This document shows positions 37,017 to 37,683 of a stretch of 64,000 nucleotides of DNA, piece after piece (the first letter of the stretch is position 1; each line of letters starts with the position of its first letter). A program made the translations under genes and the position numbers. Location of the stretch: NCBI GenBank assembly GCA_026391455.1, contig JAPLEH010000055.1, forward strand, positions 124,001 through 188,000. The letters run 5' to 3'. Origin of the DNA: Bacteroidota bacterium (GTDB lineage: Bacteria > Bacteroidota > Bacteroidia > Chitinophagales > Chitinophagaceae). The notes under the pieces are model-generated. The model saw only the letters and a list, made by a program, of their open reading frames with translations, had not been told where the DNA came from and ran no database searches.

Positions 37017-37128
37017 CTTATCAAGAAAGGCGGAGGGTTATGGCCCGATGATGCCTTGACAACCTCTTCCCGTGCAAACGGGAAAAAGGTGCCAATTCCA
37101 TCCTGACAACAAGGTCAGGGCAGATAAG
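37017..37128 (+). ncRNA. SAM-I (S-box) riboswitch
   Basis: P1 is closed by CTTATC (37017-37022) and GATAAG (37123-37128). The conserved core is present: GGAGGG, GGCCCGATGA, TTGACAACC, a P3 hairpin TTCCCG...CGGGAA (37067-37084), the invariant AAGGTGCCAATTCC, and P4 CCTGAC/GTCAGG. Ligand-bound P1 keeps 37125-37128 from an antiterminator, so SAM switches downstream methionine genes off at the transcriptional level. Confidence 0.96.
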
Positions 37129-37217
37129 TCAGATCATCGCTTCGGAATACATTTTTCCCAATAAAAAAAGCTCATCTGATTTACCTGCTGCGGCAGGAAG
37201 ACCGGTGAGCTTTTTTA
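37125..37217 (+). terminator. Riboswitch expression platform: antiterminator and intrinsic terminator
   Basis: Terminator: AAAAAAAGCTCA (37163-37174) with TGAGCTTTTTTT (37205-37216), enclosing CCTGC-TGCG-GCAGG, followed by a T-run. Antiterminator: 37125-37134 pairs with 37174-37183 over ten bases (one G-U) and uses the 3' strand of P1. The two folds exclude each other, giving a classic OFF switch. Confidence 0.88.
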
Positions 37218-37466
37218 GTTTCTACCCCTCCCACTTTCCGGATAAGCACTGTATCAACAATTTTATTAACCGGCACACTTTTGTGCCAGCAAAAAAGAAA
37301 ACATGTTTAACAATCAACACCTTTCGTCCGGTACACGGTACCACAGCCTTGAACTATTTGCCCGAATATGGCCCGATTGTCACCTGCTTGTAATGCGATG
37401 GCTACACAAACAGTCATTTGAATTCGCTTTCATTAACAAATAATTGATAAAATACCGGAAAATAAA

Positions 37467-37499
37467 TTTGGAAGGATATACAAAAGTCCACTACTTTTA
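37467..37499 (+). promoter_or_regulatory. Possible second promoter, upstream of the leader peptide
   Basis: TTTG at 37467-37470, 21-bp spacer, TACTTTTA at 37492-37499 (one mismatch). Transcription would begin only a few bases before the leader ORF at 37510. Its presence would give a SAM-independent transcript. Confidence 0.35.
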
Positions 37500-37509
37500 T
37501 AGAGTAATT

Positions 37510-37599
37510 ATGCACAAGCACAACATATATACCCTCATCAACGACCGCATTGCTGCGATCGGTATGTGCTGTTGCTGTTGTATGCCCCAGGCATACTAA
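37510..37599 (+). CDS. Putative cysteine-sensing leader peptide (29 residues, five consecutive Cys codons)
   Basis: ATG 37510 to TAA 37599 encodes a 29-residue peptide with residues 19-25 reading MCCCCCM, then PQAY. The Cys codons (TGC TGT TGC TGT TGT) are at 37567-37581. They are followed at once by a hairpin TATGCC-CCA-GGCATA (37581-37595) and a second, AGGGC-CAT-GCCCT (37614-37626); GGCAT at 37590-37594 can instead pair with ATGCC at 37620-37624, so the folds compete. It ends 84 bp before metY, whose enzyme assimilates sulfur. Ribosome stalling at low Cys-tRNA is a plausible regulatory input; no U-run follows, so control may be translational. No database comparison was possible. Confidence 0.6.
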   Translation: MHKHNIYTLINDRIAAIGMCCCCCMPQAY

Positions 37600-37683
37600 T
37601 ACTCTACCTCCAAAGGGCCATGCCCTCATTTATTGCCTGCCATTTTATTTCACCGGATTCATTAACCTAAAAATCATTTTATT

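Follow-up and report, generated by a model that had tools for sequence, protein, structure and literature searches.

A cysteine-codon leader ORF before metY in Bacteroidota, next to or fused with a SAM-I riboswitch, as a candidate for ribosome-mediated attenuation

Introduction

Mycobacterial short ORFs with runs of cysteine codons have reportedly been tested by Canestrari et al. 2020, as cited in PMC9031893 and PMC13236596. Leaderless short ORFs of this poly-Cys type were predicted before mycobacterial cys operons, according to the accessible part of PMC1262725. The locus described here resembles them in that consecutive Cys codons lie near a stop codon upstream of a sulfur-assimilation operon, the ORF lies (here would lie, if transcription starts at the promoter candidate P2) at or near the 5' end of a transcript and terminators are not obvious. 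It differs in belonging to another phylum, in having metY of the methionine branch as its target, in carrying a hairpin directly 3' of the Cys codons and in being joined to a SAM-I riboswitch. In Rhodobacterales, uORFC-8-2 before cysS (PMC8632094) is likewise predicted to act by ribosome-mediated attenuation with tandem Cys codons and structured RNA, but the available portion of that article describes two Cys codons, a gene for Cys-tRNA synthetase, a clear terminator and no riboswitch. The Salmonella mgtA leader (PMC6460261) likewise combines a ligand-sensing leader RNA with an ORF of amino-acid codons (Mg2+ and the proline-codon mgtL); as far as the accessible sections of that source go, the ORF lies within the Mg2+-sensing leader, whereas here the SAM aptamer and the Cys ORF would respond to two different metabolites within a single pathway. 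The S. meliloti metA leader (PMC9373788) likewise has a start codon and a terminator shortly after a SAM riboswitch; that riboswitch is, however, of the SAM-II type, metA begins at the second of two AUGs that share a frame, and no Cys codons are noted in the excerpt available.

For F. psychrophilum, strong clues for leader-peptide attenuation upstream of amino-acid operons are given in the accessible part of PMC9723704, in which part of the present finding may already figure. In the open PMC literature, to the extent that its texts were available, no description of a Bacteroidota Cys leader was found, either ahead of metY or in combination with SAM-I. The arrangement would be a natural RNA gate that combines a metabolite riboswitch with a ribosome sensor for a second metabolite from that pathway, and its conservation would extend to many families in a phylum whose leader-peptide control seems to have received little study. 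It suggests convergence with the mycobacterial poly-Cys leaders and gives a testable model of sulfur division between cysteine and methionine.

Methods

The window is the whole analysed stretch of 64,000 nt from a Chitinophagaceae genome of 5.5 Mb, and all coordinates are window positions unless preceded by a locus or contig label. For the family sample, metY was searched in 147 Chitinophagaceae genomes, which yielded 66 metY upstream regions (L092-L157). A Cys leader was scored as an ATG ORF with at least three Cys in its last 16 residues and a stop codon 60-130 nt before metY. The sample from outside the family consisted of 69 metY orthologs of the same class (Bacteroidia) with 67-82% identity. 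For the reading frame, 105 leaders (of 117) that differed in their last 250 nt were used, 49 of which had at least three Cys codons together with a P2 score of at least 15/20. The 20-mer TGYTGYATGCCGYAAGGCAT, which covers Cys-Cys-Met-Pro and the hairpin, was scanned over 84,980 species with one genome each; about 4 matches were estimated by chance at even base composition. Promoter candidate P1 was read from the sequence against the Bacteroidota promoter consensus TTTG / TAnnTTTG, as given in the accessible part of PMC7366714, and the SAM-I antiterminator strands were read off the sequence and carry no score. The folding statistics omit L105, L110, L153 and similar leaders, and the RNAalifold and antiterminator tests omit ten rows and similar leaders.

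Results and discussion

The upstream part of the leader and the genes that follow it were assigned as listed:
36934-36966, + strand: promoter P1 candidate of the SAM-I leader (TTTG at 36934-36937, 21 nt, TATATTTG at 36959-36966)
37015-37130, + strand: SAM-I riboswitch aptamer (RF00162, 76.8 bits, cut-off 44.4, full model)
37126-37216, + strand: SAM-I expression platform (antiterminator strands 37126-37134 with 37174-37182; terminator 37164-37216)
37684-39009, + strand: metY, O-acetylhomoserine/O-acetylserine sulfhydrylase (TIGR01326, 686 bits, cut-off 495)
39011-40069, + strand: metX-like homoserine acyltransferase (TIGR01392, 338.5 bits, below the equivalog cut-off of 500)
40071-41327, + strand: hom, homoserine dehydrogenase (NF004976, 297 bits, cut-off 205)

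The SAM-I riboswitch that a first-pass annotation had placed before metY-metX-hom was recovered at well above the RF00162 cut-off and is the single match of that model in the genome; its terminator folds strongly (-24.9 kcal/mol for a 65-nt piece), antiterminator strands are readable, and SAM binding by the aptamer is predicted. The gene names given there hold for metY and hom, while the metX product falls short of its cut-off. TIGR01326 is annotated as O-acetylhomoserine aminocarboxypropyltransferase/cysteine synthase.

About 270 nt beyond the SAM-I terminator, a second group of features begins:
37467-37506, + strand: promoter P2 candidate (TTTG at 37467-37470, 21 nt, TACTTTTA at 37492-37499; palindrome TCCACTACTTTTATAGAGTA at 37487-37506)
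37510-37599, + strand: Cys leader ORF (ATG, 29 codons, TAA at 37597-37599; product MHKHNIYTLINDRIAAIGMCCCCCMPQAY)
37567-37581, + strand: five consecutive Cys codons, TGC TGT TGC TGT TGT, read from the sequence
37580-37596, + strand: hairpin H1 (GTATGCC-CCA-GGCATAC; arms 37580-37586/37590-37596), directly 3' of the Cys codons
37614-37634, + strand: hairpin H2 with U-rich tail (arms 37614-37618/37622-37626), a weak terminator candidate

The ORF with its Cys run downstream of SAM-I is thus present as annotated; it starts 3 nt beyond the end of the palindrome, and its Cys codons lead straight into H1. No Rfam match was obtained between 37200 and 37700 at values up to E=1. By itself the Cys run is unusual and not decisive: runs of four Cys codons gave 83 matches in the 5.5 Mb genome (both strands, overlaps counted), and at least four Cys codons per open stretch of 12 codons were found in 22 of 510 window chunks of 250 nt, three of which reach five. 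It is taken as more than chance because it is conserved.

In the family sample, 33 of the 66 metY leaders carry the Cys leader, and by the same criterion it is absent in 33. At least four Cys codons per 12-codon open stretch were counted in 30/66 leaders within 250 nt of metY vs 6/66 at 750-1000 nt upstream. Apart from the Cys run, and frequently a terminal Met-Pro, the family peptides have little in common (MQKTTNIQAIRMMSIAPAMCCCCMCMGA, MNKQQNIYFHAPAHRSCICCMCCMP, MNRHLDKQIPVFCNTIIVCCCCCCMPQGIL). The 20-mer gave 55 matches, in 51 of which metY starts 97-137 nt past the first matched base; by name, 53 are of Bacteroidota type (including Chitinophagaceae, Terrimonas, Lacibacter, Parafilimonas and Flavisolibacter), one is an uncultured bacterium and one a Betaproteobacteria MAG. 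Two of the 51, L184 and L197, have no ATG ORF, L197 with just 40 nt of upstream DNA. The four matches without metY comprise three on short DNA (101, 145 and 38 nt) and the one titled Betaproteobacteria (L177), which has neither metY nor an ATG ORF and is a chance match or a mislabelled bin. Loss of the Cys run from related leaders had been named as the comparative result that would speak against the leader; the run was instead found to be kept in the family and, as described below, fused to SAM-I in 10 other families.

Pattern searches were of uneven use. The bare poly-Cys patterns TGYTGYTGYTGYNNG and TGYTGYTGYTGY were rejected as too common; ATGTGYTGYTGYTGY yielded the first relatives of the Cys leader, and TGYTGYATGCCN{1,6}GGCAT gave 47 matches in the 147 genomes, 20 of them metY leaders (by coordinates) and 27 not, with the metY leader as single match in the genome of the window.

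The P1 and P2 candidates share one geometry, TTTG followed by a 21-nt spacer. The P2 palindrome of the window matches the family consensus at 16/20 positions, and scores of at least 15/20 were reached by 32/66 metY leaders vs 4/660 shuffles and 1/132 control stretches. Where P2 is clear, the first ATG after it is in frame with, and open to, the Cys run in 48/49 leaders, against a chance expectation of 1/3 if frame were irrelevant, related leaders not being independent; the sole exception, L110, has no ATG ahead of its Cys run. Of the 23 leaders with a P2 score below 15, 17 have the first ATG after the best P2-like site in the frame of the run and 4 have it in another frame, while 2 have no ATG before the run. 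The distance from the end of P2 to the first ATG is 0-12 nt in 46/49 leaders, so that transcripts from P2, as a candidate start, would lack a 5' untranslated region or have a very short one. The leaders draw on both Cys codons (230 TGT and 73 TGC in 61 leaders), and the spacing from ATG to Cys run differs among leaders with the frame retained.

The palindrome may also be an operator for some regulator. Its pattern has one other exact match in the same genome, at C59:240220 (L215:1500-1519), about 30 nt upstream of a 179-aa ORF that was assigned by reading to the carboxymuconolactone-decarboxylase/AhpD type. In L139, L146, L149, L151 and L153, a similar palindrome (14-18/20) lies 11-16 nt before metY without a Cys leader, which indicates that promoter or operator and leader are separable.

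Both hairpins fold as the earlier annotation described. H1 had a mean z of -2.64, with 26/33 below -1, in the 33 leaders that came from the metY search alone and were unselected for the hairpin; the corresponding figures for 68 leaders (mean z -3.52, 61/68) are partly circular, as many of these leaders were found via a hairpin-containing pattern. As a predicted structure H1 is real: its stem is kept by a change on both sides in L134 and replaced by a different stem at the same position in L122, the stop codon lies inside its loop in many leaders, and it alone was visible when 60 leaders were processed with MAFFT/RNAalifold. The H2 region gave a mean z of -0.96 (14/33 below -1), and in the window one terminator candidate was found there vs 0.9 expected in shuffles. 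Across the family leaders, base pairing peaks 35-47 nt past the last Cys codon, after which the T content rises.

Refolding between 37590-37594 and 37620-37624 had also been proposed. In the window this pairing is possible and less stable in isolation (-5.3 kcal/mol forced vs -9.3 kcal/mol for the free fold of 37590-37640); on paper, 37590-37594 would become available for 37620-37624, at the expense of H2, while a ribosome is stalled on the Cys run. As a conserved feature the pair did not hold up, the 3' arm of H1 pairing with its own H2 at -6.56 kcal/mol, with H2 of other species at -6.73 kcal/mol and, after shuffling, at -5.97 kcal/mol. Among 61 leaders, no conserved antiterminator was detected between either the H1 3' arm or the Cys run and the H2 region, and the claim is therefore one of attenuator-like action and not of a classical trp-type layout. 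In the window, TAGAGTA at the transcript 5' end is strikingly complementary to TACTCTA in the linker; across 55 leaders this pairing was not convincing (-6.61 kcal/mol within a leader, -5.95 kcal/mol between species, -5.50 kcal/mol after shuffling) and was rejected.

The position of SAM-I relative to the Cys leader varies within Chitinophagaceae. SAM-I lies less than 700 nt upstream of metY in 30/66 loci and at 1.4-1.8 kb in 18/66, and none was detected in the 4 kb before metY in the other 18/66, where some contigs are short; the Cys leader is present in 17/30, 13/18 and 3/18 of these, respectively. It is present in 0/9 loci with SAM-I 137-300 nt from metY and in 17/21 with SAM-I at 324-554 nt. 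A distance of 1.4-1.8 kb leaves room for an intervening gene. In the one locus inspected, L118, where SAM-I is 1.8 kb upstream, an ORF at L118:3124-4299 between SAM-I and Cys leader reads as cystathionine gamma-synthase-like; SAM-I is at a like distance in 17 further family loci. In the window, SAM-I and Cys leader are neighbours with no gene between them.

Outside the family the two were found fused. SAM-I occurs within 800 nt upstream of 48 of the 69 orthologs, in 15 families, and 36/48 have at least four Cys codons per 12-codon open stretch between aptamer and metY, a count that is the same when the region is cut to 250 nt. In 32 of these 36, from 10 families, the ORF that opens at the first ATG after the aptamer leads into the Cys run, and this ATG sits 2-15 nt past the aptamer end, most often 7 (MKSLFSILKNVLQYNQYGLNRCCCMCMCCC and MKQAHDFLKKSNSKKTPSILHWAHICWCMCCCCCCMLS are examples); 31 were scored so by program, and L355, whose peptide ends SCCCC, by manual re-scoring. 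In L342, L381 and L388 it is the second ATG (9, 13 and 21 nt after the aptamer) that does so, and L384 has scattered Cys only. The fused leaders leave no space between aptamer and Cys ORF for a separate SAM-I terminator or promoter. The remaining 12/48 SAM-I/metY leaders fall short of four Cys codons; 9/21 orthologs without SAM-I found nearby still reach four, and reading of 12 more distant metY genes (46-57% identity) from other families revealed no such Cys ORF. The recurrence of the pair in many Bacteroidota families suggests that both sulfur amino acids are probably read before the enzyme is made.

At the level of sequence comparison, it is shown that position, frame and Cys content of the ORF are conserved before metY and that a Cys ORF accompanies SAM-I in many families of the class. 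On this ground we consider it likely that a leader peptide is translated from 37510-37599 and ties expression of metY-metX-hom to charged tRNA-Cys through ribosome-mediated attenuation. When Cys-tRNA is scarce, the ribosome would stall on the Cys codons, just upstream of H1 and the weak terminator candidate, and RNA polymerase, or the ribosome at the metY start, would proceed; when Cys is plentiful, the leader peptide would be finished and the leader would shut off. Translation, stalling at Cys scarcity and read-through rather than shut-off are the parts of this model that we infer, the sign of regulation (read-through at low Cys) being adopted because of the mycobacterial precedent and the role of the metY enzyme. 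In the window, transcripts from P1 would pass both the SAM-I and the Cys check, and those from P2 the Cys check alone. In the fused form, translation of the Cys ORF probably initiates in a region that includes the closing helix of the aptamer, and SAM binding may thus block it.

A wider proposal, which we hold tentatively and at close to even confidence, is that in many Bacteroidota families metY is under a fused two-input device, in which a variant SAM-I aptamer has the start region of the poly-Cys peptide as its expression platform, SAM gates the start and Cys-tRNA the finish, and that the lineage of the window split the inputs by gaining a further, near-leaderless promoter. If true, one leader would compute a logic function of two sulfur amino-acid end products.

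It is conceivable, though we would put it somewhat on the doubtful side, that the devices of the window do not cooperate at all, SAM-I governing only P1 transcripts, which stop at the SAM-I terminator, and metY being expressed from P2 under the Cys leader alone. The placement of P2 between SAM-I and the Cys ORF fits such a division, as do the 13/18 family loci in which the Cys leader stays next to metY with SAM-I 1.4-1.8 kb away, the cystathionine gamma-synthase-like gene that intervenes in L118 and the 3/18 leaders that have a Cys leader with no SAM-I nearby; in Chitinophagaceae, SAM-I and Cys leader look like modules with their own promoters. Against it, 17/30 leaders with SAM-I at less than 700 nt keep both close, and outside the family SAM-I and Cys ORF are fused. 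The annotated idea of two devices in series consequently needs narrowing: one leader does hold both, but with the P2 candidate (37487-37506) between them the series would apply to transcripts from the upstream promoter only.

Less probable, and on balance rather unlikely, is control that is translational instead of transcriptional, in which the stalled ribosome opens a structure hiding the metY start. Clear intrinsic terminators are few in the fused class: a crude scan, which took in 34 of the 36 and began at the wrong ORF in L381 and L384, succeeded in 8/34 leaders, and termination may therefore be Rho-dependent or control translational. The predicted mycobacterial cys leaders are without conserved terminators in the accessible part of PMC1262725, and a 2022 review (PMC9031893, available in part) states that mycobacterial cys leaders could regulate translation of genes downstream. 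What speaks for transcriptional attenuation is that the hairpin-prone stretch of the family, 35-47 nt past the last Cys codon and U-richer thereafter, lies well before metY, and that GC hairpins with T runs that resemble terminators are present in L230 and L232. Both are metY leaders with a Cys ORF and no SAM-I found nearby; in L232, pairing is possible between GTGTCTGGA, which follows the Cys codons, and TCCAGACAC in the terminator, and the whole looks like a classical attenuator.

Sensing of metal or redox state by the nascent Cys-rich peptide, and not of the Cys-tRNA level, has a precedent in CruR, a CXXC uORF that senses copper through Cys residues (accessible part of PMC9426467), and is improbable here: the Cys run adjoins the stop codon and would, by established knowledge, still be in the exit tunnel at termination, the remainder of the peptide is not conserved, and 51/55 of the 20-mer matches are followed by metY, a gene of sulfur-amino-acid synthesis. 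That conservation concerns only the nucleic acid (the palindrome of the promoter, the TGT repeats and the hairpin), with an untranslated ORF, is slightly more improbable still. In its favour, H1 and P2 are conserved at the nucleotide level; but the in-frame start in 48/49 family leaders, and independently in 32/36 of the fused class, the use of both Cys codons and the variable spacing from ATG to run with the frame kept argue for a translated leader.

The Cys leader is specific to metY among the SAM-I sites inspected. SAM-I is present in 286/395 genomes of the class; 90 sites were inspected, a set that is not random (the best-scoring 70 in list order, one member of the window family being skipped, and 20 hand-picked by family, L318-L337). 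In 80/90 the gene that follows is not metY-like, many being metH or cystathionine gamma-synthase-like by their first residues; this non-metY set excludes L337 (metY) and L314 (metY-like). At least four Cys codons within 250 nt were counted in 1/80 of these sites (L330). The first ATG lies at most 15 nt from the aptamer in 17/80 non-metY sites vs 46/48 metY sites outside the family, and the aptamer 3' end reads TATAAAT in 23/48 metY sites outside the family vs 0/81 sites not before metY. In L330, L265 and L277, SAM-I aptamers that end in GTAGTTAAGTC precede genes resembling those of secreted or outer-membrane proteins, and L330 carries a short ORF that ends MCMELCCSS and starts 132 nt past the aptamer.
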